Positions 13,601-36,856 of a stretch of DNA of 64,000 bases are shown one piece after another. Within the stretch, counting starts at the first letter, position 1, and each line of letters opens with the position of its first letter. Origin of the DNA: Branchiostoma floridae (lineage: Eukaryota > Chordata > Leptocardii > Amphioxiformes > Branchiostomatidae); assembly GCF_000003815.2 (NCBI RefSeq), contig NC_049980.1, positions 22,951,249-23,015,248 of the forward strand, read 5' to 3'. The notes beneath the pieces were generated by a model. It searched no databases. It was not told the DNA's origin and saw nothing but the letters and a program-made list of their open reading frames with translations. A program made the translations under genes and the position numbers.

Positions 13601-13603
13601 CAT

Positions 13604-14388
13604 CATAAAGTCACAGAAATCCCACGGGACCTGCAGTCATGGATCAATACAGGTGAAGCGGGATGTATTGGAGTTAAATGAAGTTGAATGATGACTGGCA
13701 AAGGTTATACTTTTCCCATGTTTCACCGTTGTCTCGCGATCGTAAGCTTATAGTAGTAGTTAGTTATTAAGCTTATAAGGCAGTAATTATGATATATGTC
13801 CAAACCGGGGCCCGACCAGGATGTTTGCGGCAACAACAAAATGTTAAGTGTTTATCAATAATACGATTTATGTTCACGACAAATTATTTTACGTTCTGTG
13901 TGTTTTGTTGTATTTTATATCCTAGCTTTCGTTCTCAAAAGCTGCCCGGCCAGGCCCCCGGTTTGGAAATGTGACCGCAGCCTATACAGGACACGGCGGG
14001 TCGTAAACTTAAGTTGCTGCCATTCCGTTCACATGTGGTGGCCTTGGCAGAAGTACTGCGCTGAAGGTCGACAACAAGCTCAATTTTCTACCGACTATTT
14101 TCGATAAGTAGAAGTGACATTATCACCATCGCCATACAATATCATCACATGCAGAATTAGTCAATATTATTGTGGCCCGTTCACCTGTAGGCCAAAACTG
14201 TAAACTTAGACAATGTTGTCTTAGACTTAACTGTTATTAATAAAGTAGAATTAGTTCTTTAGAATTGTTAGATGATTAATAGACATGAACACTACTAGGT
14301 GTCATCTATCTCTCTTCCTTTCTCTCTCTCTGTCTGTCTCTGTCTCTCTCTCTCTCTCTCCCCCCCACTCTCTCTCTCTCTCCCCCCC

Positions 14389-14428
<40 letters not shown>

Positions 14429-15117
14429 CAATTTTGTGTGTAAAATGTTCCCACGCTTGCGCTGTCCACTGAGCAGATCAAGTCTTTCTCATGTGAAGTA
14501 ACAGAAGCCGGAGGGTAGCTATCTATCTTCACTTGTGCCTTTGTCTTTCACCTGATGATAGGGATCTGGTGCTCAGAGATATAAAATTGATGTATAGCTG
14601 AAAAGATGACACCCGATGAGTTATAAATTTAGAACCTGTCTGCTCTCAAGATTCTCCTTTGACAACTCACCTTGTAGGTTAATGAATTTAGAAAAAAGTC
14701 TACTATTTTATCCAAAGTCACTGCTGAGGGCTCGTGGGACCGGCGATCCCACGACCTCCCACGATAAGGGTATGGTAACCAGTTAATTACCTGTATTGTT
14801 ACTTGACGATGTGAACTAATGTCTGCCTAGAGTTATACATCCGTCAAACACCCCACCGCCCCTCACACACACACGCACACGCACAATTATACACCTTGCG
14901 CCATGGTCTGAATTCTGACAGAAAGATTACTTAATTTTCAGCTGACAGATGATGTGAGCCATTAAGTGTTTTAAAACCGCTGAAGCTATAAGAACCATGA
15001 CACCGTCACCAGTCTGATCACATACCGTGGCCTGAGCAGACGTACTGGGGTGAAGGTCGACAACGAGCTCAGCAGTCCCTTTTTCAGTGAGTAAGATTTA
15101 TTTCGTCTCCGTTTTAA
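13604..15117 (+). repeat. Duplicated upstream block, copy 1 (upstream of PLAT/EGF/CTLD gene)
   Basis: Several ordered segments recur in the same order at 30303-32156. At 13604-13730: GTCACAGAAATCCCACGG and TGGCAAAGGTTATAC. At about 14070: GAAGGTCGACAACAAGCTCA. At about 14480-14840: GAAGTAACAGAAGCCGGAGG, ATCTGGTGCTCA and TGTCTGCCTAGAGTTATAC. At 14969-15117: GGTGAAGGTCGACAACGAGC and TTTTTCAGTGAGTAAG. Similarity is interrupted by insertions such as the CT microsatellite. The conserved order points to segmental duplication with its downstream signal-peptide exon, not to independent insertions. Confidence 0.75.
14304..14425. repeat. (CT)n microsatellite
   Basis: Imperfect CT dinucleotide run with C-rich interruptions (CCCCCCC). 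Confidence 0.95.
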
Positions 15118-15118
15118 G

Positions 15119-15361
15119 GTGGTATCTCACTCCACTTGGGGCACCGATGTGCCACTGCTGGGTTCGTTCACTACGGCACCTTTGTCATATTTTCGCCGAT
15201 TTTTTTTTATAATTTAGATATTGCGTAATACGTAGCGGCATGACTTAACAGACAACAAAATACACAAAACGTAAGAAAATTCCTTTATCTCTGAAATTCG
15301 TTGAGTAATCTTTAGAACCCCGCAGTGCCGCACCGGTGCCCAAGTGCAGCGAGATACCACA
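15119..15361. mobile_element. MITE, about 240 bp
   Basis: The ends are inverted copies of each other: GTGGTATCTCACTCCACTTG at the left and a matching complement ending GCAGCGAGATACCAC at the right. The interior shares GACAACAAAATACACAAAAC and GTAAGAAAATTCC with the MITEs at 37452-37675, 32806-33080 and, loosely, 39389-39593. No open frame. Confidence 0.75.
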
Positions 15362-15528
15362 TTTTACGTCTGTATAGCTGTCCCCAGATGCTATGCGAAT
15401 TTCTATTTGTATGCACACTATCGGACTATATTCCTTGTGACCCTATATGTGTTAACAAAACATTTCGGGTTTCTTCTGTGGCTTAATGGCTTTTTGCAGA
15501 GAGCCACGTGTGTCCTTCAAACGCATTT

Positions 15529-16570
15529 ATACCCCCTTTCCGCTATGACATCAAAATAGTCACCGTGCGAGCGTATAGGATGGCGGTCCAACGATGAGGC
15601 AAAACGAGCGCCAAAAGAGTGCGCAATGAGCGCCCACTAATTTGGCCAGAGCGTGGAGTGAGCACCAAAACCCCGGAAAAATTGCTCTGGTGGAATCTCT
15701 ATGGCGACCCCTGCGCGTCCAAAAGTCAACGTCAGCACCATTTATACAAATATGGGCGACCTAAGATTTGACCAGATGTCTGGATTTGACAGACTACTCA
15801 ACGAATTCAGTCAGAGAAAAAGAAGAATATTATGCTTTGTGTGTCTTGTTGTCTTTGAAGTCATGCTTTTTACATCTTGTCCAAATGTCCAAATGATGAA
15901 ATCAAGGGTGTAAACAAATCCAATTTTGTTCAGTGTGCGTCTCACTTTAAGTACATGATCTGCTTGCCTTTTTTCAATTTGTTATATAAATTTTCCGTTT
16001 ATAGTAAATATCTTTATCATAGCATAATCATAGAATATTGAAACGCTTTGATTGGAATTAAAACTTCAACAATCTAAAAAAACAGGTGAAGAACATGAAA
16101 ACAAAATGTTATTATGTTATTTTGCCGAAATAAAAACTATAAGTCATGAAGTGATAAAACATTTCTTTAGTTGTTCAATTTGTATTACCCATGAGTTTGA
16201 TAAAGAAAGGATTCATCACAAAATCTTAGTGTGATTTGGCAACAAGATTTACAAAATACACTTAGACATTCGCGAATAAAATTGTTAACTAAAGTTGAGA
16301 CCATGAGAGGCGCTCTTTCAGCGATGGCTGTGCCCATTGCCCGTTCTTTCGGTGCTCACTGCGCTCGTGCGCGCTCTTTTGGCCCTCGCCCTGCGCATAT
16401 TGTTGGATCGATATCGTCGGTGCTCTCAGGACGACTGTTTTGTCCCTGCGACTGTGGCGCTCCCTACCCACTGGCGACCTAGGCGATTCCACCGCGTTTG
16501 TTGGCGCTCTGGCCAAATCTAATTCGCATAGAGACCGCGGCGAGAGCGCCATCCTAGTGGAAGGGGGTAT
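15529..16570. mobile_element. Non-autonomous element with CCCCCTTTCC ends, about 1.04 kb
   Basis: It starts ATACCCCCTTTCCGCTATGA and ends TCCTAGTGGAAGGGGGTAT, inverted relative to each other. GCGCTC/GAGCGC motifs crowd both ends, and the middle is AT-rich. The middle is homologous to that of 17595-18651 (for example ACTCAACGAATTCAG versus TTCAACGAATTTCAG, and CAAGGGTGTAAACAAATCC versus CAAGGCTGTAAACAAATCC). Open frames in the GC-rich ends are by-products of the repeats. Confidence 0.75.
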
Positions 16571-17594
16571 CAAGGAGCGCTCAGTAGTTCAAACAAATTG
16601 AATTCTTGAAGAACTGCATTTTGTGATTTTTTGTCAAATCATACTTTTGTGTCATGCATGATTTCATAATTAGAATCGTATACGAATTGAATAACTACAC
16701 ATAACGTTACGTGCTTTCATTCAGATATTCAAATCGAAGGATTTCGTAAAATAACTGACAAGAGAGAACTAGCAGAAATGTTCAAAGTACTTTCTCTGAA
16801 ATCCCTTGAGTGCTTTATCAAATCTTTGCTCATAAGAGGTGCTGACATTTGACTTTTCAACTTTTGTGGTTGCAAAATGCCGTCTCGTCGACTTTCGCCC
16901 AACTCCCGTTTGTTTGCAAAATATTGACTTTTTTTAACTGGCGGTTTATTCTGACATTACGGCCTCTGTGGTAACGCCAGTATGTAGGCTTTGTTTATGA
17001 CACAATTCCATATCTATATGGCCATGTCTATTTGGCCCGCGCATTCCATCAATTGCTTAGAAAAATTCCGACAAGAAAAAAACATCAACATTTATGGATC
17101 TCTTTCCTTTTTGTGAGAAACGTTTTGTCTTACTTTGTCTGAGTACAAGAGGTCATGGGAGGTTTATTATCATAATTGTATTCCCAGGCGATCGTCCGAG
17201 CCTCGTTTAATGTGATAGGGGACAAAATACACGGATTCCTCTGTCGATCTTGAAATCGGCCGACGTTCTTGCGATCGCGAAGTACGCCCTCAGATCGTCG
17301 ACAATGTGAATGGGGTATTAGCGAACACTGAAGAAGATGTGAAGTGGTCTTTCTCAGACAAAGCGAAAAGAGCCGGAGGTTATAAAAAATGTATTTCTAC
17401 TAGTTGTGAAGTTGAAAGTTTCTTATCTGACGGCACCGAATGAGCCATTCAACTGTCTGCTGTTAAGATTTTCAGTTTATCATAAACGCACTTACATGTA
17501 AATAAGATAGTACGATTTTAATGTCTACCATCTTTTTGCAAAGTGGAAGCAATCCCATGACACCTCCCCCATCCCGAAAAAGCAAACGGTAAGG
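16571..17594. other. Intergenic, nothing recognised
   Basis: I see no exon, RNA gene or element here. It separates two copies of the same MITE family. Confidence 0.5.
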
Positions 17595-18651
17595 CCCCCT
17601 TTCCACTTGACGGCGCTCTCACGGCGCTCTCACTGCGATGGAAAATTGGCCAGAGCGCCGTGAGAGCGCCGCGACGCCAGAAAAACTGCTCTAGTGGAAT
17701 CGCTCCGGCGACCCCAGCGCGCTCTCACCGCGACGAAAACTCAAATGTCGGCATATTTTTATGAGCTAACAAAAGTTTGAAAGATTGTTCAACGAATTTC
17801 AGAGATAGAGAACGAATCTCTTGGTGTATAGTGTATTTTCGTACTTTTAAAGTCATCCTTTTACGTCTTACATAACATTCAAAGAATAAAATCAAGGCTG
17901 TAAACAAATCCCATTTTGGTTACTGTACAGTCACTCAGCCCGAAATATACACGTTTGTCTTGTTCCTTTTTCTTAAATCTGTCATGTACCTTGTTCACCA
18001 TAAATTGTTTTATCATGCTACGCTTTTAGTGTAAATCATCCAACACCGAAACAGTTCGATTTATTGAAAACAGGACTTCAATAGTATAAATGTACAGATG
18101 AAGAACAAGAAAACTGATGTCATCATGTTGAAATTTAAAAAAAAATATATGTTGAGAAATGATAAACCTTTTTTTAAACCCTGGTTATTCCTTCTCAGTT
18201 TGTTTCAATGTAAATCATCGGTACATATTAAACATTTCTCCGGGTTCTGTCTGTTTCAAAAATACTTCTTCTCAAACTGCAGTTGAGAGCGCAGAGAGAG
18301 CGCCGAGAGAGCGCCGTCCTAGCTAATTTGGTATCATAAACCATTGTTGAGACCTATTGCGCTCGCTGTGTGCTCTCTTGGCGCTCACGGCGCTCGCTGC
18401 GCGCTCCCTTGGCGCTCTCTCTGCGCTCATCGTTAGATCGCCGTCCACGGCGCTCTCACGGCGACTGTTTTGAGCAGGTTCAAAACAGTCGCGGAGGTGA
18501 TGGCGACCATGGCGACCATGGCGCTCCCACCGCGCTCTCTGTGCGCTCCCATGGCGACCTTGGCGATCCCACCGCGCTCTCACCGCGCTCTTCCAAATTT
18601 GAGGTCGCAGAGAGAGCGCCGTGAGAGCGCCGTCCTAGTGGAAAGGGGGTA
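17595..18651. mobile_element. Non-autonomous element with CCCCCTTTCCACT ends, about 1.06 kb
   Basis: The left end CCCCCTTTCCACTTGACGGC is the inverse of the right end GCCGTCCTAGTGGAAAGGGG, with CGGCGCTCTCACGGCGCTCT at both sides. It is the cleanest copy in this window of a family also present at 15529, 32806 and 37452. No transposase remnant was seen. Confidence 0.82.
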
Positions 18652-18699
18652 TAAGAAGCTAGTGACCTGTACTGTTATTTGACGAGTCGTTGATCGATG

Positions 18700-19020
18700 T
18701 CTGTCTGCCTGGAGTCACTTATGCCCTCTATCCCACCATTGTATTTGTAAGATGTTCCCACGTTGAAAACGGCCGTGTCCCCTAGCGCTGGGCGGGTTTC
18801 CCATGTCCTTAAGTGATAGGGGCCGCAGGGTAATCATCTCTTGAGTTGTTCTATTGATAACCTTTCTTCCGATGACAGAGATTTGGTGCTTACAAAGTTG
18901 ATGTAGTGGAAAACAGTAGCGATCCCACGACATTCCTGGGAACGGTTACCAGCTAGCGATGTGTATTGTTATTTGACGGCGTGTATTCGCACTTCGTCAG
19001 TGATGTATGCCTGCACCTTA
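18700..19020 (+). promoter_or_regulatory. Upstream cassette near the PLAT/EGF/CTLD gene start
   Basis: Contains GTGACCTGTACTGTTATTTG, TCTGCCTGGAGTCACTTATG, GATGACAGAGATTTGGTGCT and GCTAGCGATGTGTATTGTTA. These match cassettes near 14480-14840, 30755-30965 and 36030-36265. It lies 0.4-0.7 kb before the ATG of the gene; the 36030 copy lies at the same distance before the ZP gene. A promoter or 5' UTR role is inference from position and duplication only. Confidence 0.45.
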
Positions 19021-19398
19021 AGATGAATTAAAGAAGGCCAAGACCTGGAGGCACCATTATCAAATTAGTTTTCAGAAACAGCATGTTTACAGTGCACCTT
19101 AAAATGTTACTTTCATCGTTTTATCAGACATCTTCGCCAGGTTTGAATTTCGTGGAACAGATTATTTTGCTTTCTCTTCAGCATTAAAACAACCATACTC
19201 TAAGGAGAATAACCATACTCTAAAATCTTGCATAAACAATATAATACACAATACACACCTTACCCAAGCAAAACATTGTGCAAAATGTGTCTAGTTGCTC
19301 GAATACCTTTGTGTTTGTGTTGTGTATCTCCTTAACTTAATGACTAACCTTCATCGACAAACTTTTGTTTGTATCAGAGGGAATAAACAAACGAGACC

Positions 19399-19465
19399 AT
19401 GAACCCAGGAGCGCTGTTCGGAGCAGCGGCCCTAGTGCTCGCGGTGACCCAAGTGGCCTCCCTAG
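19399..19465 (+). CDS. Signal-peptide exon of PLAT/EGF/CTLD gene
   Basis: Encodes [20 protein letters not shown], a 22-residue hydrophobic leader, then a GT donor in phase 1. The preceding AGAGGGAATAAACAAACGAG and the exon itself are nearly repeated at 36790-36856 before the ZP gene (MNPGALLGAAVLVLVVAQAT). This is the single coding piece shared by the two genes. Confidence 0.88.
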
Positions 19466-22400
19466 GTAAACAATGATAGTTTCTGAGTACCAACTCCTGT
19501 AAATAATTTTTATCTGTTCGTCACTTTTTTGTTCTGTTTATGTCTGATGAACACATGCTTTGTTCATTTGGTTATGATTATTCACAATTAAGCTTGATTT
19601 CTATTGAACATTCGCTGTGGGTGGGGGTAGTGGAAATAGTACCGGGTTGGTCAACACCACGGCGTTGGTCTTCAAGGTCACGTTTGTCACAAAGTCAACG
19701 TGGCTTTGCTCTCAAGGCCGAAGCTCCATTTTACATTGAAATTAACTCAAGGTTCACTGAGATTAACAGACTGATTTTTTCCTTTAAATAAATTGTGTAA
19801 AACACTGAAACTCATTAATATATGTATCAATAGATTTCACTAGTTGCACTTGTACCAGCTGGTGTACTGTATGAAAACAAGTGTATATTTTTGTTCTAAA
19901 CGGAGCAGCGACTCACACTCTCACCATAAAGACGGATGATGCTCCTTACTCTGGGAGTACAAATTCCTTGACCGTGGGGATTTTTTCTGATGATTGTGAC
20001 ATCATCAATGCGTGTGTGACAGAAACAGTATCCGAACTCACGTCAAGTGGGTAGGTACAAATAAATAGACACTTAATGGTTCCAAGAAGTCGATATGCTG
20101 TTTATTTCTACTAACGGGTAAATACTATCAGTACTATCCAGATCATAATATGCTTGGGATAGTATCTTTTGAGGTAAAAGAAAAACGTGCTGAGTATTCG
20201 CCAGACGGTTAACTATGGGTCTATATAGTGTAGGTGTCTGTAATTGCAAAACAAATTGAGTACTGTATCAAAAACTTGGCCATATTCGTTTTTGACACCA
20301 CAGAGATTCTTTTGCTTGATTCGCACTTCTTATTTCCTACTGAGATATGCGTTCTTTTACAAATGTACACATGCTTAAAATATTATTTACATTCCAACAT
20401 CTAAGGACGGAGTATGTTCGACAATTCGATGATGAGGATTTCGGTGATCCTACGAGGCTCAAACTGAGAACTTCTGGGAGCAATGGGCTGCGGATCGAAT
20501 GGGTCAGTTTTTTATTCTCCATGTTATGTCTAGTTTTGATATCATCGTTAATTTGCACAAGACTATTTCAATCGTTATAGACATAGACAAACACCATGTA
20601 AATGTCTCTTTTCTTGCAGGTCAATGTGCACAACGCTTACACTGGGCGACAGCGTCGATTTTTCTGTCACGTACACGAGCTCGAGAATTGTGTTTTGTCC
20701 ACTGATTCTAGCGAGGGTAGCCGGGAAATCTACCTGGATTTTGAGGGTTAGTACCTTGTAAACATCACATCAGACTAATACTTTGAAGTCTTTGAAATCT
20801 TTGAAATCTTTATTAACATACCACGTAGCAGACATTTAGTTATGTCTGAATTATGTTGGTATTTACATGTGCTCCTCCGGGGAGAAATACACTATAAGTT
20901 ACGTACATCAATTCAAAAAGACAGCATAGTTCAAAATCTTAATTGCTAACAATACGATTTGTATCACGAATAAGGAACCATTGGTCTTAGACTACATATC
21001 ACAATCAAGACAGGTGTTCGGTTAATATTGAAAGACGTGCACAATATAATAGTCGATATAACTTGTTCAAAAAATGTGTTCAAAAGTCACTCAATTCGTT
21101 CAAAAGTCACTCAGGGATCAGGCCATACTTGTTAATCAGTTGGCATATGTACGGTATTGGCGAGTTTCTATATCTATTGGTTCGTGCTGCTGGGCAATCT
21201 AACTTCTCACTGTTTCTGGTAGTGCGGCCAGTTATCTGAAATCTTTGCGGAGGTAGCCAGTCTCTGTACTCAGATTTCAAGAGTGACTTAGCAAACTTAA
21301 CACATAACAGATCCCTTCTCTCAGATAGCCGTGACAGTCCTAGTCGTTGGAGTGCACGGTCGTATCCTACGTAGGAGTCACCAAGAATAATGCGGCACGC
21401 CCGTCTTTGGATCCGCTCAAGGCTTCGTTCCTGGGTTTTAGTGAGACCGGGGGACCAGGCAGGAGCTGCATACTCCAGGATAGGTCTAATGTTTCAAACT
21501 AGCCGGTCCTTACAAAAACACTTGATGACCAATTATGTATGTATGATAATGATGTGAATGAGTAAAAAGAAAACCGTGATATTTTATTTAACCAAATAGA
21601 ACCAAGTGCACACAGCCTAAAGATAAAGACTGGTGATCCTGATTATGCTGGGACTGATGATTCTCTGACCATCGAAATCTTTTCGGACGTTTGCAACGGT
21701 ACCTGCGTGTCAACGACGGTGTCTAGGCTCACGGCACAGAGGTAGGTACTATCAATTATAGACATGGCCTATTTTGATATTGTCGAGTATAGAATTGTAG
21801 GTACACAAATACAGATGTTTGTGTATCATGGCTCATAAAAAGAGTTAGGTACGAGTATTATAAATCACGTAATTGTTACATGTACCCCGGGGTCTAGAAA
21901 TCCTACCTTTTTCCCCATGTAAAAACATCTATAGCCAAAAACAAAGGCATGCGTCTCGGATAGCACATCTAAAGCTGAGAGACAAAAGAACTTGGTCTTG
22001 GTCCAAGCTTTCTCAGAGTCTTATCCATTGTCATCAGATATTGCTTATTAAGAAAAATATTTTCCCCAACTTTTAATTGCTCTTGATGTATTTCAAGTAA
22101 CCGAGACGTGTCGATCTGCGATTTTAGTCACGACTGCTACTTAAAGTAAATGGACCTTGTTTCTAACTCTATAGGACCGAGTATGATCGATTCTTCTTCG
22201 CTCCTGATTTCGGCGATCCCACCAGGATTCACATTACAACGTCAGGGGCAGACATTCTTATAGTGGACTGGGTAAGTGTCATGGAAATACTTACTTTTCT
22301 GCCAATTCCTATAAATTAGTAGTTTGAGACTAATTGAGCCATTGTCGGTAGAGAATTTTCATGACTGTTTTTAACAGATTAATGTGTACAACGCCCACTC

Positions 22401-25400
22401 TGGGAAGCACTACCGTTTCTTCTGTCCCGAGTCCGGCTGTATTTTCTCCAAGGATCCCAGCGAAGGAGAAGACCAGATCTCCTTAGATTTTAACGGTAAG
22501 TACCTTCGGCAAGCAGTTTGTTTCCATGTTCCTTCGTATCGATATATCGTTTATATGTACATGGTAAATACATTGCGTAACACATCAGGTTTGTACTTCT
22601 GTATATCAGAACAAATTTATTTGATCCACTCACACCTGGAAGTACCCCTATTTTTTCAAACCTTTTACGTGCTTGAGATGTGGCTCATCCCAAACATGGG
22701 ACCTCCATTTAATGTAATATCCGAAGGCACCGAAGGACACCTCTAGCCGAAACTAGGTACTGATATGCACCTGAGTGAAGTTATAAAATTAGTGTTAAGT
22801 ACCTTATCTAATGATATGTCAGGAGAGTCGAACTCAGGACCTCCGGGGTTTGGGCCCAACACCGTGCCTTGGTCCTTGGTGTCTCCAGAGTGGTACATCT
22901 TCTTTGCTTTTGTAGCAATGCCCAATTACAGTGTTAGTACAGGTCCGACTCATTGGTCTTCCGACGGGTTGTGGTCGCTGTGCCCTCTATCGTTCTGTTT
23001 GTGTCTGTAATAGAATGTAGACCGACCATATGATGATATGTGCTGACAGAATCGTATAATTCAGACAACTATGTATCTGTGCCGTTTAACCAAACAGGGA
23101 CACACAGCCTCACCATCAGGACGGATGATGCTACTAACTCCGGGAGCACCGATCCTGTAATCGTGGACATCTTTTCTGACGGTTGCTACAATGCGTGTGT
23201 GACAACAACAGTGTCCGGACTAACAGCAAATGGGTTGGTACAAGTAGTTAGTCACATGTTTTGCATATACGCCTGTTGGCTTGATGTGTTTTGCTTTTTC
23301 ATGCAGAAATTAGATTATCAGAAATGAGATGATCATATTATCTGTATGAGTACGAGACAGGCATGTTGAGTATTAGCGATTGTTTGTTCATACTTACACC
23401 AATGTTTCAAATTAGCCTGTTCCAATAAGGAAATTACCAGTCACACTGCTGTACTCTAACATGTATGTCTCTTGTGGTACTCTAACATATATTTCACATA
23501 TACGTCTCTTTCTTAACCAAACCTGCTTTTTGTAACCATGAATCTAATAACATTTTCAAACACGATTGGCATCAAAGGAAAAAGTACGACCGTACCTTCG
23601 CCGCTGAAGATTTTGGTGACCCAACCAGGCTTGGACTTACAGCTACAGGGAGCAACTGGCTTCAGCTTGAATGGGTACGTACTTATAAACCTACTGACTG
23701 TTCGTTTCAGCTGTGTTTGTAATTTTCAGCTGTGTTTGTCTATACTAATTCAGCTGTTTTTCACGCTGTTTCTCTTCACAGATTGACGTATTCAATGCCT
23801 ATATTGGGCGATTCTATCGTTTCTTCTGTCCCACCGGTGGCTGTGACCTGTCCACTAATTCTAACGAAGGAAGCCAGCAAATCTCCTTGGATTTTAAAGG
23901 TCAGTACATCAGCCTGTTACTGTAAACAGTAATTTACCACTATGCAGGGGCCCATTTTGAGTATCAGATGTTGAACGACAAGCGTGTAACACGACGATAT
24001 GTTATTTTACCAAACAGAGACGCACATCCTCACCATCAGGACGAACGATTCTCATGAGAACTCCGGGACCCCAGACCGCGTGACAGTGGAAATCTTTTCG
24101 GACGCATGTGAAGATGCCTGCGTGACAACAGAAGCACTCGGACTGACGGCAGCGGGGTAGGAACAACGAAGATTATTAACCAGAGGTTCTTCCCGCCATC
24201 TGCATGACTGTCATAGCTCATTTCCTCTCATTAGTTGCCTGAAAACTAAATCTAATTACCCTGTAACCCTTAGTTTTATCTGTGCTTACTCTTGCATGTC
24301 CTCACCATACAGATATGCGACTCCATACATACAAGTTCCATATGTATACGAAGTCACGCATATTACCCACAAATGTCTTTAATAACCACGACTACGTTTT
24401 CCCACATGCCCGACGTGTAAGGAGAGAGTACGATCGAACCTTTCTTGCCACCGATTTCGGTGATCCCACCAAGCTTGGAGTGTCCATTTCTGGTAGCGAC
24501 TGGTTCCAGTTTGACTGGGTAAGTAGCTGATGCTGACCATTCTCTTGATTCATGACCAAACTCGTGAGATTTATGCATCCCAAGTTTTAGAATTATGATG
24601 ACTTTTTTTGCTGTTGTTGCTTTTACAGATCACCGTGTACAATGCTATTTCCGGGCAAAGCTACCGGTTTTACTGCCCCGGTTGCGACCTATCCACTGAT
24701 GCAAGCGAGGGTAGCCGTGAACTTTTCCTGGATTATGACGGTTAGTAATTACACTGCGCTTGGCTGTATATGTTAGATAGGACAGATAGTGAAGAGTGTT
24801 TGTTGACTGTTAAGCCCTGTAATCGGATGATTTTCGGTCGGGTTTTCCTAGCAATAAAGATGAGGAAAACACGAGAACGAGTCTAAGTAGAGCGACTGTG
24901 TGTATAAAACCAGACATTGTTGAAGTGGGATGAAAGACATTGCCGAAGTTAAGACTAACCTAAGTGCGTTTATGATTTACGTGTTACAATCACACATAGT
25001 CATTTACTGTCTCGTTCTTTTAATCATTCTGGTTACACTTTGTTACAGAGTGTGCGGAAGGAAGGCATAACTGCGACATCCATGCCACCTGTACCAACAC
25101 AGACGGCAGTTTCAACTGCACCTGTGATCCAGGGTACAGCGGAGACGGACTCACCTGCGCCGGTATTTGCACAAATATTTAGCATTGTTTGTTTTTCTGT
25201 CTTGTTTTTCAAATGAACCATCATCACAGCCTTTCTCGTCCTGACGGACGCTCTGCCCATCGCTGCCGAGTGGGCCCATCTGTGAGCAACAATGCCAGCT
25301 AGACTTCTGCTGGGTTTTCCATGTCTCACAGCAGAATTCCATTGTTACCTTCGCCAAGAAGGTTATATTTTCGGTAGCGTTTGTGCGTGTGGGTGTGGTT

Positions 25401-27481
25401 ATAGAAGACCACTATAAGTTTTAACTCGAGAATGGATTGTATTGCTATTTGGTATTTGGGTACGTCTTGATGAGACCTGGAAATGATTAGACATTGGGCT
25501 CTCTAGCAGCTTGGTATGGTACTTTAGCGGAACTTCTGTGTTTGATATCTCGAGTTCTGGACATGCTGTGGTCATGATTTTTGAATGGCAGATAGATCTT
25601 GTTTAATTCTAAAATTTGTATCGTACTTGTTTATTTCTAAACAAAAGCTTGTCAAGAAATCGTTGTTGTCGATTGTGTGGCAAAATATTATAAAGGTACA
25701 AGGCATTCATTTACATTATTTTCATGTCCACCTCCTTTGAAAATGAACCAGTGTAATGAATTTTGTCTTCTGTCCGTGTACTCAATATCCCATATACGTG
25801 TGGCAAAGTTTTATTTATCATCTTACAGAAATGACCACGACTGCAGCACAAACTACGGCAGCGACTACCGCTGCAGCACAAACTACGATACCGACCACGA
25901 CTGCAGCACAAACTACCACAGCGACCCCGACTGCAGCACAAACTACGATACCGACCACGACTGCAGCACAAACTACGATACCGACCACGACTGCGGCACA
26001 AACTACGACGGCAACCACGACTGCAGCTCCAACTACGATGGCGACCACGACTGTAGCTCCAACTACGATGGCGACCACGACTGTAGCTCCAACTACGATG
26101 GCGACCACGACTGCAGCTCCAACTACGATGGCGACCACGACTGCGGCACAAACTACAGCAAAAGGCATTGTTGTACATTATACTATGCTCCGATATACCA
26201 AAGAAACATTTCTACACTCAAGTTATATTCCAATCTAATTCTTACATTTTGTCCGTGCAGATGTTGATGAATGTGAAACTGGAACCGACAACTGCAGTCC
26301 TGACGCCTCTTGTACCAACATCCCTGGCAGTTTTACCTGTGTTTGTAATCCAGGCTACACCGGCGACGGTGTCACGTGTACTGGTAAGGACGTATTCTGT
26401 AACTTTTGTGATTGTGACACGAGGAGCGGTGCGTTTGGTGGACCTTGCACGAGCAACTCAGGAGACTTCGACTGTTCCAGTGGTGCCAACTAAATGTTAC
26501 GTGGCGACGGCGTAAATTATAATAGTCTGTTACACTACGTCAAACGGGTGCTTCTCAGATTCTCTAAATTATACATTGATAGTCAACAAAATATGTATAC
26601 TGATCTTACAACATCATGATCATTTGAAGATCATTGATCATTATTAGAACCTGTTTATGTTTTTATCAGGCATCTGAATCAAAGTGAACTTACGGTCGTT
26701 TTTTTTTTTAAAACATGCTATGTTGTCTTTTTTCGGTTGATACGTATGCGCAAGTGAAGGAGGTAACATAAATCTGTTTTATTGCAGATGTCGATGAATG
26801 CGCCAGTAACAACGGCGGGTGTGAGGGAACTTGCACGAACAGCGTAGGAAATTTCAGCTGCTCGTGTGGTGCCAGCCATGTGTTGAATAACGATGGATTT
26901 ACCTGTGATAGTGAGTTGTTCTCTGTATTTTCTTTCTTTGGTCAGGCTGATGTGCTTATCGTTCGGATTGCTTTGAAATTTGAATCTTTCTGTTTTTGCA
27001 ACCCCAGCTTGCTCCTCCGTCTACTCTGGACTCAGCACTGACGCTAATTTCGGCGTCTACCAGAACCAATGTTTCTGGTTCACCTCGGCAAGCGACCCGC
27101 AGCTAGACTACATGTCGGCCAAGCAAGTGTGTCAGGATCTGGGCGGCACCCTCGCCATGATCAAGGACCAGGCCACGGAAACGTTTATCCTCAACCGTCT
27201 GAAGGCCATCGGTCGACCCAAGAGGTAAACCTTGAGAAACACACATGCCATCTTTGTCATAAATAGCGTTATGTTCTAGTGAATTGTGAGGTGATAAAGC
27301 TTTCATTCATTCATTCATTCATTCATTCATTCATTCATTCATTCCTTCCTTCCTTACTTACTTACATAATTACTTACTTACTTACTTACTTACTTACTTT
27401 CTTACACACATGCCATCTTTGTCATAAATAGCGTTATGTTCTAGTGAATTGTGAGGTGATAAATCTTTCATTCATTCATTC

Positions 27482-27512
<31 letters not shown>

Positions 27513-28045
27513 TCTTGTTTCAGGAGATATTGGATTGGCCTTGACGACCTCAACTCGGAGAAAATTTTCCGCTGGAACGACGGGACCCCTCTGGGAGAGT
27601 ACCACAGGATTCGGTCCAATGACCCGCACAAGAGAAGGGACTGTGTGGCTCTGAGGCCCCGAAGGGTGCTTCGTTGGCCCATCAGGAACTGCGGCTTCGC
27701 CTACCCGTACATCTGCCAGTTGGGTGAGTAAGTCTTATACAGGGTTTCCTACGCACCCATCCGTAGATCTGCCGACTTGGTGTGTAGGACTTTTACAGGG
27801 TCATCCCACTCACCTACCCATACATCTGCCTGGTAGCAGGTGAATACACAAAACATACAACATCGAAAATGATCTAGTTTATATCAGTTACACCATATCA
27901 CAGTATCTGCACTTGTTGATAAGAGTTAGTACATACAGGTTAAGGGTCTCTTGTGTAATTCTAAAATTTTCTTGACATTTTTTAAATTCTATTTTCTTTA
28001 ATATGATCGTCTCAACCTCTTACAGGCACCAACGGCAGCAAGTAA
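19399..28045 (+). CDS. Secreted mosaic protein: signal peptide, 4 PLAT-like modules, EGF, mucin-like linker, 2 cbEGF, C-type lectin
   Basis: About 873 residues. Exons: 19399-19465, 19909-20050, 20406-20502, 20620-20746, 21600-21741, 22175-22271, 22378-22495, 23098-23233, 23578-23674, 23782-23899, 24018-24156, 24422-24518, 24629-24740, 25049-25162, 25829-26164, 26261-26383, 26788-26910, 27008-27224, 27524-27723, 28026-28045. Phases join throughout and the sum is divisible by three. The ATG opens a hydrophobic leader and is followed by a donor in phase 1. There is no transmembrane segment, so the product should be secreted. Each module is bounded by phase-1 introns, the classic pattern for shuffled extracellular domains. 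PLAT domains bind lipid or protein in other families and C-type lectins bind sugars; the ligand here is unknown. I know no named family with this order. Confidence 0.85.
19909..20746 (+). CDS. PLAT-like module 1
   Basis: Three exons with phases 1/2/0/1. First: [20 protein letters not shown] and VGIFSDDC. Second: [17 protein letters not shown] then RIEW. Third: [18 protein letters not shown]. The order agrees with the PLAT/LH2 pattern (T-x-D-x-x-x-x-GT, then G-D/E-P-T-x-L, then W, then TG-x-x-Y-x-F-x-C). Cysteines in [10 protein letters not shown] and the FFC motif are kept in the later copies. Assignment is by motif; a profile search would be decisive. Confidence 0.72.
20770..21495 (-). mobile_element. 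LINE (non-LTR retrotransposon) 3' fragment, inserted in PLAT gene intron
   Basis: Read on the minus strand from about 21492, it encodes [20 protein letters not shown] then [17 protein letters not shown] and [20 protein letters not shown]. This is the typical C-terminal part of Jockey/CR1-type reverse transcriptases. It ends near 20790 in AATAAAGATTTCAAAG with ATTTCAAAG tail repeats. 5'-truncated; it lies between PLAT modules 1 and 2. Confidence 0.85.
21600..22495 (+). CDS. PLAT-like module 2
   Basis: Exons 21600-21741, 22175-22271 and 22378-22495 with the same phases as module 1. Residues [20 protein letters not shown] give the best PLAT match of the four (KTGD and AGTDD). They are followed by [30 protein letters not shown] and [20 protein letters not shown]. 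Confidence 0.78.
22765..22910 (-). repeat. tRNA-derived SINE remnant
   Basis: On the minus strand it carries GGTCCTGAGTTCGACTCTCC, a pol III B-box-like motif, followed by a GATAAGGTACTTAACAC body segment. Layout matches the SINE at 30025-30175 (TCCTGAGTTCAAACG then GGCACTTTACACGAC). It lies in the intron between PLAT modules 2 and 3. Confidence 0.55.
23098..23899 (+). CDS. PLAT-like module 3
   Basis: Exons 23098-23233, 23578-23674 and 23782-23899. [52 protein letters not shown] and [20 protein letters not shown]. The 97-bp middle exon has exactly the same length in all four modules. Confidence 0.77.
24018..24740 (+). CDS. PLAT-like module 4
   Basis: Exons 24018-24156, 24422-24518 and 24629-24740. 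[52 protein letters not shown] and [19 protein letters not shown]. It ends in a Ser/Asp-rich segment and then directly joins the first EGF exon in phase 1. Confidence 0.77.
25049..25162 (+). CDS. EGF-like domain 1
   Basis: A single phase 1-1 exon with six cysteines: [20 protein letters not shown] then [19 protein letters not shown]. The GYSGDG turn and spacing are classic EGF. It lacks the DVDEC start of the two later copies. Confidence 0.92.
25345..25670. repeat. Interspersed repeat (tentative) in intron
   Basis: CCTTCGCCAAGAAGGTTATA and TTTCGGTAGCGTTTGTGCGT are followed by TTTTAACTCGAGAATGG, GAAATGATTAGACATTGGG and similar. I recognise this type of sequence as a dispersed repeat in marine invertebrate DNA, but I cannot name the family or define ends. 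Confidence 0.3.
25829..26164 (+). CDS. Thr/Ala-rich mucin-like linker exon
   Basis: One 336-bp exon of about 111 residues made of an 11-residue tandem repeat, [11 protein letters not shown] shading to [11 protein letters not shown]. It is rich in Thr with Pro, the composition of O-glycosylated stalks. Frame: it opens after CTTACAG in phase 1 and must close in phase 1 to meet the next EGF. Only a GC donor at 26165 (AAAG then GCATTG) does this without adding unrelated residues, giving TTAK-DVDEC. Repeats also leave open frames on both strands; these are by-products. Confidence 0.78.
26261..26383 (+). CDS. EGF-like domain 2 (calcium-binding type)
   Basis: Phase 1-1 exon starting [20 protein letters not shown] and ending [13 protein letters not shown]. 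The DVDEC start, the Asn in the second half of the [11 protein letters not shown] motif and an aromatic after it fit the calcium-binding EGF pattern. Confidence 0.92.
26427..26515 (+). pseudogene. Decayed EGF exon relic in intron
   Basis: GGACCTTGCACGAGCAACTC and TTCGACTGTTCCAGTGGTGC line up with the real EGF exon 26788-26910 (GGAACTTGCACGAACAGCGT and TTCAGCTGCTCGTGTGGTGC). In frame it reads [18 protein letters not shown] and then a stop, with one of the paired cysteines now Ser. No AG acceptor in phase precedes it. It is a dead copy of the neighbouring EGF exon. Confidence 0.7.
26788..26910 (+). CDS. EGF-like domain 3 (calcium-binding type)
   Basis: Phase 1-1 exon [20 protein letters not shown] then [20 protein letters not shown]. 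Six cysteines, cbEGF start, and the NNGGC loop common in multi-EGF receptors and fibulins. Confidence 0.92.
27008..27723 (+). CDS. C-type lectin domain (two exons)
   Basis: Exons 27008-27224 and 27524-27723. [40 protein letters not shown], then [40 protein letters not shown] and [10 protein letters not shown]. The four core cysteines and WIGL are present. The WND calcium-site motif is kept as RWNDG, but the EPN/QPD specificity triplet is replaced in the long loop (IRSNDPHK). So sugar binding by the usual mode is doubtful. Confidence 0.9.
27238..27518. repeat. ATTC and TTAC microsatellites with a duplicated 60-bp unique segment
   Basis: The segment ACACACATGCCATCTTTGTC through AATTGTGAGGTGATAAA occurs at 27239-27298 and again at 27404-27462. 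Each copy is followed by (ATTC)n and (TTAC)n runs. So an approximately 166-bp unit has been tandemly duplicated in the intron between the two lectin exons, ending close to the acceptor at 27521-27523. Confidence 0.9.
28026..28045 (+). CDS. Terminal coding exon of PLAT/EGF/CTLD gene
   Basis: Only TNGSK and TAA, joined in phase 1 after CTCTTACAG. If the preceding donor at 27724 is read through, the frame would end in GE-stop instead, so the two alternatives differ by only a few residues. Confidence 0.65.
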
Positions 28046-30019: not shown

Positions 30020-30024
30020 ACTTC

Positions 30025-30175: not shown

Positions 30176-30302
30176 GTTTTGTTTGTGCAATATCATAAAC
30201 ATGATCCATAAACAAGTCAGCACATTTTGGAAATCGATGAGATACAAATCAGCTACCCCCGTAGCAAACCTTTCGTGTTTGCCAATTCCAGAGATACTGA
30301 AA

Positions 30303-32156
30303 TGACATCATAACGTCACAGAACTCCCACGGCCTTCCTCAGTGATGGGGTAAATGTGGGTGAAGCGGGACGGATTTAATGATGTTGAATAATGCCTGCC
30401 AAAGGTTATACCTTTCTCATGTTGCACCATCACCTTAATAATGCGGGTCATTTGGGGATAACAGGATATGACGGGTTGTCTGCGAATTAGGTGGTTGAAA
30501 TGATTTCATGCGCATGCGCTTGTCTAAGCATAGTTACAGGTCGTTATGGGTCTTAAGAGTATTGTAAGAATGCCGTCGTTACAGCATGTGGAACCTTGAA
30601 GCCAAAATTTGACAACAAGTCTGTAACCTATGGTGACATAACGGAGATAATGTCTGTGGTGAAGGTCGACAGCGAACTCACACTTCTACACCCCCTTTTT
30701 CAGTGAGCATTGAGTAAAACTGATATCATATCAATATAATTAAGTGGTCTGTCTAATGTAAAGTAACAGGAGCCAGAGGGTAGATGTCTGCCACAGCTGC
30801 GCCTTTGATTACCTTTCACCCGATTACAGAGATTTGGTGCTCATAGACATAAATTTGATGTAGCGGAAACAACAGTAATACCTACAAAGGTAACCGGCTT
30901 ACCAGCTAGTGACCTGTATTGTTATCAGACGATGTGGACTTAAGCCTGCCTAGAGTTATACGGTCTTATACCATCATCCTCTGACTCACTGACAGACAGA
31001 CTACTTCTTTGTGCTTCCGTTTCAGCATAGTATTACAGCTGTTGTGTACACGTAGCTTATATGTCTCTGACCTACTTTAAAGTACCCACATGCTCTAAAA
31101 GTTGCTACTACATACACTATATGTTATCATGTTTATCTTCAAGTTCATGGAAGGAAAAATATTGTTTAGCTCCGTTTCGTCCTCTTGTATTTTCTCCTCC
31201 AAACAATAGAGGTCAATGAAAAATAAGGTCAATGACGGCTGTCACCATGGTTACTGGAGGCGTAGCAGATACTCTGTAGTGGTCAATTACGTGATGTAAA
31301 TGAATGTATTTGATTAAGAATAAAAAGAGGTGTAGTTTGTCAGGCTAAAGCATGTGAAGGTACTTTTCTAGTTTTGTCAGAAAGTCTCTTCAATTTGATG
31401 TTAAAACATAACAGTCTAGTTGCAGGCCTTTTGAAATCAGGCTGCTCATACTTGAAATCAGTACAGCCATCTAGGAGAGTAAGACATTGCGTCGTGGCAA
31501 ATATGAAACTTCAAGTCAGGACCTTTTACGCTAGGTTTTTTTATATATCAATCCATACACAGTAGGGATTGAAATATATTGTTTTTATATTTCAATCCAT
31601 AAATTTTTTTAATGTTTGCATGGGTTGGAGATGGATTAAAATATGTTGTATTTTCTTGCGAGCAAATGTCGGCCTTTCTAAAGATTTAGTTACAGCTGTA
31701 TTTCCATAATTGATGAAACATTATCAAACGAGAGATTCAATGAATATTGAAAAATGGAGGTATGAGGTTTCCGAACTCTCGTTCAATTCTTGCTAGCTTT
31801 CGCTTAAGTACATACGTTCCAGTTGAAGGAAACATAGTCACAGGGCAATATATTTTGTTTATACTACCAGTATTAGGATCTATGTTCTTTGATATTCAGA
31901 ATGATTTTGTTTATGTATTCTGCAGTTAGACAGATCTAAACGATGGGGACGGCATCTTAAAAGTTTGCTGGTTATTATTTTTTCAATGATGATGTGAAAC
32001 ATTGAAGTGTTTAAGACTGCTGAGGCGTTACGAGCCATGACGTCAGCTTTGACAACCAGTCTGTTCACATAGGACGGAAGTACCGCGGTGAATGTCGACA
32101 ATCAACTGAAAACGACCCTTTGTCAGTAAGTAAAACTGATTTCGTTTCCATGTTAG
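30303..32156 (+). repeat. Duplicated upstream block, copy 2 (upstream of ZP gene)
   Basis: Collinear with 13604-15117: GTCACAGAACTCCCACGG (30316), TGCCAAAGGTTATACC (30396), GGTGAAGGTCGACAGCGAAC (30658), AAGTAACAGGAGCCAGAGGG (30761), GATTTGGTGCTCATAGAC (30831), GCCTGCCTAGAGTTATACGG (30945) and GGTGAATGTCGACAATCAAC (32085). Order and spacing are kept apart from small insertions. The downstream signal-peptide exons are also duplicated. Confidence 0.75.
31618..31690. repeat. Interspersed repeat copy (GCAAATGTCGGCCTTTCTA)
   Basis: Shares the core GCAAATGTCGGCCTTTCTA with about 330-350 and the near-core GCAAATACCGGCCTTTCTAG with 56405-56424. The preceding GGTTGGAGATGGATTAAAATATG aligns with GGGGTATGGCTGAAATATG of the first copy only loosely. 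Family unknown. Confidence 0.6.
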
Positions 32157-32479: not shown

Positions 32480-32805
32480 TATCATTGAAAGGTTATCTAT
32501 TATTCATTAAATAGACATCAATTTTGTCATGATCAGAACCAGAGCTGACCAGGCGAGTGCGTCACAGAACAAGAGTGCAAAAGTTCTCCTGCCTACAGTT
32601 TCTGACGTTGAGAAGGAAACTTATGTATTTTTTTGCCCACCAGCAAATCATATGGTTCTCGTTGCACAAAGGCGTTATCATAAGAAATGAGAGACCATGT
32701 ACCATTGTAGAGGCATATAAACCAGTTTTGTAATGTTACAACTGATAGTGCTAATCAACAAATAACGGCCTTCAGATCAATGAAGAATTTCAGCACTTCT
32801 TTTAG

Positions 32806-33080: not shown

Positions 33081-33403
33081 AAACAAGAAATCTTTTTAAA
33101 AAAGCTGTGCCTTGCCGCGTGGTAGGAATATCGTCAGGAAAAGGTAGGTCGGCACTTCAAGCCCAGCAAGGCAAAATGCTATGCCTTGGCGTGCAGTAGG
33201 GATAATTTGCTTGTCTGCTGAATACGTATTATGGTAGCCAAAGCCTTGTATTGATCTGTTAATCTTGTTGGAAATATATGTAGGTGTCTTAAAATATGAC
33301 CTTGCATTTTCTGACCCTCGACCACTAATAAATATGAAATAATTAGACATTATTTCAAGGATATACAGTAACAATTTTAATTTATTTCATTTCTGTGAAA
33401 GGG

Positions 33404-33737
33404 CAGCTGAGTGGGTACTGTATGCTTAGCAGGAGTTCAGGTACTGTGGTCAGCTGAGAGGGTACTGCATGCATAGCAGGCGTCCAGGTATTGTGGCCAG
33501 CTGAGTGGGTACTGCATGCACAGCAGGAGTCCAGGTACTGTGGTCAGCTGAGTGGGTACTGCATGCATGGCTGGAGTCCAGGTATTGTGGATACCTGAGT
33601 GGGTACTGCATGCATAGCAGGCGTCCATGTATTGTGGTCAGCTTAGTAGGAGCTGCATGCATGGCTGGAGTCCAGGTACTGTGGTGAGCTGAGTGGGTAC
33701 TGCTTGCACAATTTGAGGTACTGTGGTAAGTTGAGAG
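33404..33737. repeat. Minisatellite, about seven copies of a 47-bp unit
   Basis: The unit begins CAGCTGAGTGGGTACTGCAT and ends CCAGGTACTGTGGT, with internal variants CATAGCAGG, CACAGCAGG and CATGGCTGG that alternate between copies. The variants alternate irregularly. It produces short repetitive open frames on both strands, which are not genes. Confidence 0.93.
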
Positions 33738-33739
33738 GG

Positions 33740-36029
33740 TACTATATCAGAGTCCTCCCCAAATGATGGAATAAGGGAGGCTCTCCACTATACTCCAGCC
33801 CAGCTCCACTATACTACATTTGAAATCTAGTGTGTTTCTTCCCTATTTTCCTGATTAGTTTTGCTAATTTTAATGAAAATTCACAGATTTTTGTGGTATC
33901 ACTTTTCCAGTTGGCATTGTCTGCAAAAACTTGTGAATGGGCGATGGTCAAAGCAATAGTGGTTTTGGCACTTCACAACAAAGGAGTCACAACACTATAT
34001 TGTACTTGTAGTATTTGACACCATCTGTCATGCAAAATGAACAAATTTTCATGAAAGCGCAGCGCGTTGGTTTGGATTATTTTTGCCAGCCCCTCCACTA
34101 TACTAAAAGATTCTGGGGAGAACCCTGACTATATGAATGACTGCAGTTCAGGTATATGTACTATGGTAAGATTGAACAGTTAGTCAAAAATAAATTAATT
34201 GTCTTTTGACAAATTTGACAACTTATATGAAACGTGTTGTTTATCAGATGGCATTACTTTGTATATTGCAATATTTGATGTAGTTCATCAGAGCAGCGTG
34301 CATTTGTGCTAATCACAATACAGTCTGTACGGTGGCAGAGGTTGAACTTGTTGTATTGAGTGCGAATGCACAGTCTGCACGGTGGCAGGGGTTGGAAGAT
34401 TGAGTGCAAAAGCACAGTCTGCACGATGGCAAGGATTGGTAATAAGTGGCAGTGATTAGACTTTGTCTACTTGATGGCGTATTTCATTCAATATACACTT
34501 TGGCTTTAACACGGCTCTGGTCTGTGCTGTGAAGAAATCTGCAATCGAAGACTGAAAGAGAAGGAGAACAATTTCTTGTGTCAACATTAAAACCAACTGA
34601 AAGAGCATATGTATATTTAATTGATAGAATACTAGTGGTTTCTAAACATATGACAAAGGAGGTTTAAAAAGACCTTGACATGACTAAATGGTAGCCAATT
34701 TCTTGGCATTCTTCAATATTTGTTGGAGAGGATCTGCTCCCCTCCTCCACCGACAGCATAAATCTTTTTAAAAAATGGGACCAAAATGAAGGCAATACGA
34801 TAGAAACAGTCCTGAGTAGACATTTAAAGATGGCAAACGTTAGTTGGTAAGCAAGAAAGTAAGACACGAATGTGCTCAATCGTGTAAAAATAGAACCTTG
34901 CATGTCCGAAAAGGATTGGGGAGGGGGGCTGTTTTGATTCACTTCGTCTTTTCGTGTTTATGAAATTATGTTCACGGCCGGACAAACCAGCGTCATTTAT
35001 TACACTTGTTAATAATTTGTTCACCTACGATGTCAGGGAAATACCACCCAGGTAACAAAAATGTCCGACAAATTATGCACAAAGAAAACTGATCTAGTTA
35101 CAGGCCTCACAAAAACACGGATAAAACAATGATTATTTTAGGAATCACTACGATAAAAGTTTGACATATATAGTAGCTAGAATATTATCTTACATATTCC
35201 AAAGCGTTACATTTTATTTCTGGATTAGCGATAACTTTGAAAGAAATGATGTAGAATGAAGACTAGGAAATGTAACAAAACAGGCCGCAGGACTAGAGTT
35301 GATATTTGAAATATAACAAAATGATCCTAAATATTATCTATTGCGACTTCTCGTGTGACGTTTTGAGCTGGCGCTCTCCTAAACTCACGTTAGCGTTTTG
35401 CTGCGGTCTCGGAAGGTGTCTCCAACGTTTTGATGACGTCATGGCTACTTATATATTCACATACAATTCATTAGCCTGATTTGGACATTATTTCATCTTT
35501 GTGAAAAGCTAATGCAATTCTTGTTGCGAGATAATACACTTGATTTTATGCCACTCCAAATGAATTTGGAATTTTACCATACAAACGCTTCAATCATTCA
35601 ATGTAACCAAATATTAAATGCTTTTAGAACCGACCGCAAACAGAAACAAATACGTAAAATGGACGGTTTAAAATTCAACGGGGATGTACCATTGTCTGCC
35701 TAAGCCGTCAAACTTGTCCATGAGAAAGGCGATTTGGAAGGGCCTTTGAAATGGTCTTTGGAAGAGCAAGGTTAAAAGGTCCGTCCGTCCGTCCAAGGAA
35801 GAAAGCTGGCGTAAAGCCTTGCCGGCGGCAAGGCAAAAAAGGGGGGTAATAAGCGACCTACTCACTACCTGTTCATGGTGCCTAATCCATGAACCCATTA
35901 AAACAATGGGAATATGATTGTAAATCGCAATGAAAGAGCAAGGATGCGATACACGTAAATAAGACGGACATAGTTCGCTATGTGCGTTTTAAGATGCACA
36001 ACGTTGGCGCCTATGTCCACTGACGCAGA
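33740..36029. other. Intergenic, no gene recognised
   Basis: No supported exon. Notable small items: three tandem-like copies of CAGTCTGCACGGTGGCAG at 34322-34440, a perfect cyclic-AMP-type TGACGTCA at 35434-35441, and a small palindrome GCCTTGCCGGCGGCAAGGC at about 35816-35834. Confidence 0.5.
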
Positions 36030-36265
36030 GTAAAGTGGTCATTCTCATGTAAAGTACCAGGAGCCGGAGGGGTACATACCTATCTACAGTTGTGCCATTG
36101 ATGTTTTTCTCAGGGGTCTGATGCCCATAGTTATCAGGTTGACGTGCGGAAAACATGAGCGACCCCCACACCTTCACAGGTCACGGGAACGGTGATCAGC
36201 TACCACCTGCATGTATTGTTCGAAGTTTGACGACGTGGATTAAAGTCTGCCTGGAGTTATACTTA
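36030..36265 (+). promoter_or_regulatory. Upstream cassette near the ZP gene start
   Basis: CATGTAAAGTACCAGGAGCC, GGGGTCTGATGCCCATAG, GATCAGCTACCACCTGCATG and GTCTGCCTGGAGTTATAC match the cassettes at 14480, 18700 and 30755. It ends about 0.5 kb before the ATG of the ZP gene, mirroring the 18700 cassette. Its function as promoter is inferred. Confidence 0.45.
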
Positions 36266-36789
36266 CCTTCATCCTCTCACGCCATTGTTTGGATAATGAT
36301 AGACAGGCTATACTTCTTTGTTCTCCATTCCAGCACAGTATGCTGCTGCGTGCTAAACTTAAGCGGTATTTTTAGGACACACCAAAACTCATCAGCAACC
36401 CATGAATTATCTTGACTGTCTGCGACCTGCTGTTAAGGACACATGTCCTAAAACTAGCCACCAACTGCACCAGGTGGACAGAACGTTTTGTCAAGTGTTT
36501 TTTCGACCTCACATGTGACCATAGTGCACAACCTATGATTCTGGAATCATAACAAACGGTTATGTATGTAAATGGCAATATATAAACTATCCATGTATCA
36601 TGCAATACACTTGATTGGTATTTACCCACCCAAATCAACTTCCTAAATTTTTTGTGCTGTGGTTAGATTCTATAGAACCTATCCAGTTGGCTGGGTAACT
36701 TTTGTGAATCAATGTATCTTTTTACGTGGCTATCTAACCTTCTTCGATACACCCTTGTTAGTTGTTTTAGAGGGAATAAACAAGAGACC

Positions 36790-36856
36790 ATGAACCCAGG
36801 AGCTCTGTTAGGAGCAGCAGTCCTTGTGCTCGTGGTGGCTCAAGCGACTTCTCAAG
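36790..36856 (+). CDS. Signal-peptide exon of ZP gene
   Basis: Encodes MNPGALLGAAVLVLVVAQAT, with the donor in phase 1. It has the same length (67 bp) and phase as the leader exon at 19399-19465, with 14 of the first 20 residues the same. The conserved upstream AGAGGGAATAAACAA extends the match into the 5' UTR. Confidence 0.88.

Follow-up and report, generated by a model that had tools for sequence, protein, structure and literature searches.

Gene B of an amphioxus gene pair probably combines the 5' end of its PLAT-EGF neighbour with a truncated FN3-ZP body

How could two neighbouring genes that encode unrelated proteins come to possess the same front end? This question is raised by a 64,000-nucleotide stretch of the Branchiostoma floridae genome (bases 22951249-23015248 of contig NC_049980.1, hereinafter C2; the window, in the coordinates of which all positions are given unless another contig is named), where two genes on the plus strand, A and B, carry similar leader exons coding for a signal peptide. 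A previous, sequence-only reading held that a duplicated 5' cassette was joined through phase-1 introns to two different captured bodies. The present analysis, which included searches of the whole genome (513 Mb, 431 contigs), supports the duplicated cassette and its phase-1 junction, whereas the notion of two captures has to be abandoned. With a probability that we put at roughly 0.8, gene B is a 5'-truncated EGFn-FN3-ZP-TM gene (TM, transmembrane) to which a copy of the gene A 5' end became attached by way of a phase-1 intron.

The exon models of both genes were built by hand from splice sites, with the exon finder and the frame lists serving only the choice of exons; signal peptides and the transmembrane segment were called by eye from the translations. 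The parts of the two genes are as follows.

19378-19465, plus strand: leader exon of gene A, with about 21 nt of 5' untranslated region, ATG at 19399 and 67 coding nt, ending in phase 1
19909-28045, plus strand: body exons 2-19 of gene A, an open exon model with four PLAT repeats, three EGF domains and a C-type lectin
36771-36856, plus strand: leader exon of gene B, with about 19 nt of 5' untranslated region, ATG at 36790 and 67 coding nt, ending in phase 1
36857-37148, plus strand: intron 1 of gene B, 292 bp, the presumed junction zone; no EGF exon seen
37149-42224, plus strand: body exons 2-10 of gene B, an exon model with FN3, ZP-N/ZP-C, an RRRR site, a transmembrane-like segment and a short tail

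The model of gene A (19 exons, 19399-28045) yields a conceptual protein of 761 amino acids and that of gene B (10 exons, 36790-42224) one of 482 amino acids, both open throughout. In a Pfam scan, gene A matched PLAT (E, the expect value, 1.1e-8; one stretch), EGF_CA (8.7e-26; three stretches) and Lectin_C (8.4e-17), the other three PLAT repeats being recognized by exon-exon similarity, and gene B matched fn3 (1.9e-10), ZP-N (4e-11) and Zona_pellucida (1.8e-24), with fn3 and ZP its sole families. The FN3 exon of gene B might start 15 nt later, with the phase unchanged, and there is a two-codon uncertainty over where exon 8 ends (41143-41149). The transmembrane-like segment, as seen by eye, indicates that the gene B product is probably membrane-anchored rather than freely secreted, so that of the two secreted products previously envisaged, that of gene B would drop out. 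When each protein was compared with the locus of the other gene, there were no matches at E 1e-3.

The front ends tell a different story. The leaders (19399-19465 and 36790-36856) are, as had been noticed, equal in length and phase, with 54 of 67 bases identical, and are homologous. In a self-comparison of the DNA, the identity spans the 5' untranslated region, the splice site, the leader and part of the intron (E 9e-30). The match ends at 36930, such that the first 75-80 bp or so of gene B intron 1 match intron 1 of gene A, whereas beyond about 80 bp the remainder scores at the level of shuffled sequence. Elsewhere, the leader profile gives weak matches (E 6.5e-4, 1.5e-3 and 2.4e-4), which lie on the opposite strand and reach only from model position 2 to 55, the AT-rich portion preceding the ATG. 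A BLAST match of 27 bases (E 0.002) upstream of relatives of the gene B body involves sequence of this type too; none of these were counted.

The homology extends into the DNA upstream of the leaders, in the form of discrete blocks.

13591-13739, plus strand: block S1 of gene A; matches 30306-30428 (E 5e-17) and the block profile
13991-14129, plus strand: block X, unit 1, of gene A; profile E 1.4e-37, this copy being itself in the profile; 14020-14082 is 81% identical to 15009-15071
14477-14587, plus strand: block Y, unit 1, of gene A; 14482-14594 is 77% identical to 30747-30862 (E 6e-18); also a profile match
14747-14932, plus strand: block Z, unit 1, of gene A; 14778-14838 is 84% identical to 30901-30961; found from the gene B copy in a genome search
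14981-15112, plus strand: block X', unit 2, of gene A; 14948-15116 against 31988-32155, 66% identity (E 1e-12), or 73.4% on a trimmed alignment
17341-17435, plus strand: weak extra Y-like block of gene A; profile E 6.6e-6, or 2.9e-5 in 284 kb
18628-18740, plus strand: proximal Z-like block of gene A, first copy; profile E 7e-20, this copy being itself in the profile
18790-19014, plus strand: block segment upstream of the gene A leader; seen with profiles and found from 30280-31070 in a genome search (E 2.6e-9)
30293-30439, plus strand: block S1 of gene B; self-comparison and profile
30581-31059, plus strand: X-Y-Z, unit 1, of gene B, nearly contiguous; profiles
32021-32151, plus strand: block X', unit 2, of gene B, with a donor-like site; self-comparison
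36026-36361, plus strand: proximal Y'-Z' cassette of gene B; profiles

Self-comparison and profiles give the same order and orientation at both genes, namely S1-X-Y-Z-X', then unrelated and repeat-rich DNA, then Y'-Z' and the leader, in agreement with the collinear segments and proximal cassette previously described. The sharing itself is thus real; the claimed extent of about 6 kb of common upstream DNA is an overstatement, since about 1.25 kb per side still match, in patches. Counterpart blocks of the two genes are about 56-77% identical over whole blocks, and up to 84% in the best pieces. Among the gaps tested (two gene B gaps of less than 40 bases were left out), those from S1 to X and from Z' to the leader score at shuffle level. 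The long gap from X' to Y' scores 32.5 against a shuffle maximum of 25, its best match being a GGCGCTCTC repeat, and GGCGCTCTC-rich matches between the two upstream regions were rejected, all four pieces tested having further copies in the vicinity. That discrete blocks stand in DNA that cannot otherwise be aligned suggests an old duplication of which some parts were selectively kept; gene conversion would be an alternative account of the retained similarity.

X, Y and Z each occur in at least two copies per gene, so the ancestral region would already have contained a repeated unit. The A2-B2 pair of X copies is 73% identical, compared with 57-62% for other pairs, an indication, with weak tree support, that the unit was already repeated before the A/B duplication. 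A search for a decayed leader behind the distal X-Y-Z unit gave a weak score for the gene B inter-unit stretch against the gene B stretch from Z' to the leader (20, with a maximum of 18 in 100 shuffles) and none against gene A, and no such leader is claimed. Block X contains a short VKVDNEL-like frame, noted by eye. With respect to structured RNA, there was one Rfam match far below the gathering score, no tRNA, and folding z-scores of -0.4 to +1.9 for six block sequences. A minisatellite with copies offset by about 94 bp lies at 33401-33743 in the gene B upstream region.

Where, then, does the body of gene B come from? Its ZP part has at least 144 exon matches genome-wide, its own exons included, among the 150 of 284 candidates that were scored, and its FN3 exon has counterparts at 16 other loci (57-61% identity), at 15 of which a ZP exon lies no more than 1 kb downstream; for the sixteenth, on contig C228, none is listed. 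In each of the four close relatives inspected (C2, 9.53 Mb; C5, 16.31 Mb; C12, 12.61 Mb; C7, 6.13 Mb), EGF exons precede FN3 within 3 kb, one in each being confirmed by Pfam. The gene B model has no EGF exon and passes from the leader to FN3 across the 292-base intron, and the original 5' part of the recipient appears to be missing. In the 3-4 kb upstream of the five relatives inspected there was no convincing match to the leader or the blocks, the profile matches to Y and Z having E 0.53 and 0.68. Gene B thus combines a 5' part homologous to gene A, noncoding DNA included, with a 3' part that belongs to another family. This family is a large one. Seven of its FN3-plus-ZP loci cluster on both strands within about 0.7 Mb of C5 (28.09-28.81 Mb), and at 33.54-33.64 Mb of C3 there is an expanded relative, in which ZP exons are surrounded by numerous, densely arrayed FN3 exons.

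Which of the two bodies is native to the shared front end is indicated by a third leader. A whole-genome search with a 20-base pattern (up to two mismatches) returned A, B and one site on contig C19, with two differences, both silent in the MNPGA reading; the control of this pattern gave one match per strand, so by this pattern alone the C19 match could be a chance one. A degenerate MNPGA(L)(F/L)GA pattern, allowed one mismatch, found the same three sites genome-wide, all without mismatches, against none in the control. The genome search for further leader copies that the sequence-only reading had called for thus turned up this one. The C19 leader ends in phase 1 at a phase-1 donor and matches the leader profile with E 8.4e-16. 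Downstream are PLAT exons that match those of gene A (joined matches down to E 4e-19) and were also found in the genome search with the gene A PLAT, followed by EGF, Sushi, more EGF and thrombospondin type-3 (TSP_3) repeats; a single C19 PLAT unit alone had no Pfam match at E 0.01. Within the 12.2 kb C19 stretch examined, an intact PLAT exon at 3901 opens in phase 1, an earlier PLAT-like piece (3615-3719) seems to be broken and 100 N fill a gap at 2442-2541, so that the joint between leader and PLAT is itself a prediction.

The combination of leader, PLAT exons and EGF is therefore present in both gene A and the C19 gene, and because these two share PLAT and EGF exons, it is with PLAT-EGF genes that the leader is associated. 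The family from which gene B has its body shows, in the close members inspected, EGF at the place of the leader. Hence A probably represents the native body type, and B the chimera. We infer that the direction was from A to B, by a local duplication at the DNA level with its junction in intron 1. Under this scenario, a stretch with the upstream blocks, the leader exon and the beginning of intron 1 of gene A would have been copied, and would now stand before an EGFn-FN3-ZP-TM family member without the EGF part of its relatives. Since the leader ends and the FN3 exon begins in phase 1, splicing would join the two in frame, and the signal peptide would route the FN3-ZP-TM protein into the secretory pathway.

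Several observations weigh against this scenario and have to be stated together. The data are the sequence of one species. No joining scar was identified in intron 1 of gene B, and 36000-37160 has no match in the upstream DNA of the FN3-ZP relatives; the splice joint between leader and FN3, like the upstream transcription starts discussed below, is a prediction. No EGF exon is present in the 4 kb of the fifth, more distant relative (C3, 4.67 Mb; 44% FN3 identity), which has another cysteine-rich exon instead, and a signal-peptide exon of their own was sought in the FN3-ZP relatives and none identified. In the C19 stretch, S1, X, Y and Z give nothing better than E 1; only 1.5 kb of it lies upstream of the leader, a range in which Y and Z are expected and absent, and S1, X and X' would fall beyond it. 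The search with the gene A PLAT returned roughly 14 further loci, none with the leader pattern, so the leader goes with at most one branch of the PLAT genes. The Y and Z copies, finally, give a mixed picture, with no clean sorting into A1-B1 and A2-B2.

Among competing scenarios, the one that fares best, though we consider it unlikely, is a tandem duplication of a whole ancestral leader-carrying gene, followed by a body swap in which exons of another gene supplanted those of one copy. The end state is the same as under the 5'-end duplication that we prefer, only the copied unit and the order of events being different, and the tandem same-strand layout and homology reaching into intron 1 are compatible with it. 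Neither protein, however, retains any similarity to the other locus at the threshold of E 1e-3, and the homology stops about 80 bp into the intron.

Another scenario would trace S1, X, Y and Z to an old mobile element of low copy number, inserted in front of each of the two genes, so that only the leader is gene-derived. The occurrence of X, Y and Z in two or more copies per gene would be compatible with a repeat, and mobile elements are reported to abound in lancelet genomes (PMC4284660). In a profile search of 284 kb around the window, however, every S1, X, Y, Z and leader match with E<1e-4 was located upstream of either A or B, on the plus strand and in the same order (the other S1 matches are weak, E 0.017 or worse). 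In a control, four repeat-like pieces each recur, with 2 to 5 matches outside 13-38 kb of the window, and two retroelement-like pieces gave none. Beyond the 284 kb, coverage was by DNA search of the genome: 36015-36365 returned itself alone, whereas 30280-31070 had, besides the match to itself, three others, each upstream of gene A (one with E 0.35), and a repeat run agreed. This search is of low sensitivity (neither the C19 leader nor in-window copies of about 56-75% identity came up), so diverged, rare block copies could exist, which also counts against the duplication scenario, and it is the absence of close copies elsewhere that makes abundant or recent repeats unlikely. The earlier reading, under which the segments are not common dispersed repeats, thus holds within this sensitivity. 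Given also that the unit repeat seems older than the A/B duplication (the X pairs, with weak support), insertion of a mobile element strikes us as a rather poor explanation.

Still less plausible is a promiscuous leader exon that was shuffled into many genes, with A and B as independent recipients. The third copy on another chromosome-sized contig might seem to favour this; yet there are only three copies, with no more at one mismatch, and A and the C19 gene share PLAT-EGF exons too. Moreover, seven upstream blocks are common to A and B, whereas the 1.5 kb before the C19 leader, the expected place of Y' and Z', has none. Convergence or chance similarity, conceivable insofar as signal peptides are simple sequences, is refuted by the DNA identity over the 5' untranslated region, splice site and intron (E 9e-30) along with the collinear noncoding blocks, and can be dismissed.

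If, as we favour, the gene A 5' end was duplicated, what are the retained blocks? A 3' splice site, accompanied by a CTAAC motif that resembles a branch point, precedes the ATG by 19-21 nt in both genes, with acceptor scores of 5.7 in A (above the 99th percentile of AG dinucleotides in the window) and 3.6 in B (above the 95th), and an AG occupies the aligned position in all three leader copies. Donor-like sites are present in X' of both genes (after 15086 in A, score 5.0; after 32125 in B, 5.5), and a shared GGGTA forms a donor-like site in four of the five Y copies (2.9-5.5); these scores come from generic matrices. The leader exon is therefore probably not the first exon, and transcripts are predicted to start further upstream, from a noncoding first exon, which does not by itself refute the idea of a shared 5' cassette. 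The blocks would be control elements or noncoding 5' exons, and the two genes would be expressed in a related manner. A more far-reaching and quite tentative proposal, which we regard as possible rather than likely, is that S1-XYZ-X'Y'Z'-leader constitutes a portable expression-and-secretion cassette, consisting of repeated control modules and/or alternative noncoding first exons followed by a spliced signal-peptide exon, and maintained by selection in both genes long after the surrounding DNA was scrambled. The same cells would then produce the ZP matrix protein and the PLAT-lectin protein, and the two may act in a common extracellular layer.

The window holds several other features. A Thr-rich, mucin-like tandem repeat at 25833-26156, between EGF exons of gene A, is perhaps an extra exon outside the model. 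Retroelement-like frames, recognized by eye, lie in introns of gene A (21107-21493, minus strand) and gene B (37888-38337, plus strand), neither with another match within 284 kb. At 11590-12171, near-identical 41-bp inverted ends (95%) surround a frame (11748-12074) that by eye resembles the start of a mariner-type transposase, so this is probably a shortened mariner element. Laminin-G-like frames, likewise seen by eye, at 47995-52396 on the minus strand probably belong to another gene, and 59623-60458 and 61612-62463 form a direct repeat (855 columns, 87% identity).

The kind of event proposed here is already known. No paper describing the A/B pair was found in a limited look at the open-access literature, by title and the beginning of the abstract. 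What the pair offers is one chromosome-scale genome in which the likely donor, the chimera, a third leader with the native body type and EGF-bearing relatives of the recipient are all available. With one old 5' region in front of two unrelated proteins, it is also a natural test of whether having such a region in common suffices for common expression. A close parallel is the mammalian REST locus (semenogelin, elafin/PI3, and the rodent and rabbit seminal-vesicle genes), where neighbours are described as sharing the promoter region, the signal-peptide exon and the start of intron 1, their bodies differ, and there are composite genes, in which the 5' regulatory and signal-peptide part comes from one gene and the body from its neighbour (PMC7556508). 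A and B resemble this locus in the common front end and differing coding bodies. Most REST genes, however, are described as consisting of three exons, of which one carries the main coding part, and the two REST gene types as mutually homologous, whereas A and B are multi-exon genes with unrelated domains and blocks up to 6 kb upstream; the likeness is one of mode, and no homology is claimed. In Drosophila yakuba, tandem-duplicated 5' ends placed beside other sequence are reported to drive its expression and produce chimeric genes (PMC5460883). By that account these duplications are polymorphic within a population, whereas A and B have diverged to about 75% identity, and here the moved piece includes the signal-peptide exon.

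As regards the recipient, gene B shares the ZP module with the amphioxus egg-coat proteins BbZP1-5, of which BbZP1 is reported to have a transmembrane domain and BbZP1, 3 and 4 a furin-type site (PMC3543715). BbZP2-5 are said to carry LDLa and vWA, and gene B has neither in the Pfam scan; the main text of that paper does not mention fibronectin or FN3 and gives BbZP1-5 as 673-927 amino acids long, against 482 for gene B. Finally, shuffling of exons in phase 1-1 has been claimed for lancelets (PMC4284660) and disputed (PMC4967905). As presented in these reports, the claimed shuffling is like the A/B case in that extracellular modules are joined at phase-1 introns, and unlike it in that an internal domain exon moved, rather than a whole 5' front end. 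The A/B case is built on homology of the 5' DNA and family membership of the 3' part, not on automatic gene predictions, and a joint backed by noncoding homology, in addition to a gene model, bears on the dispute over whether lancelet domain combinations are real or products of gene-prediction errors.

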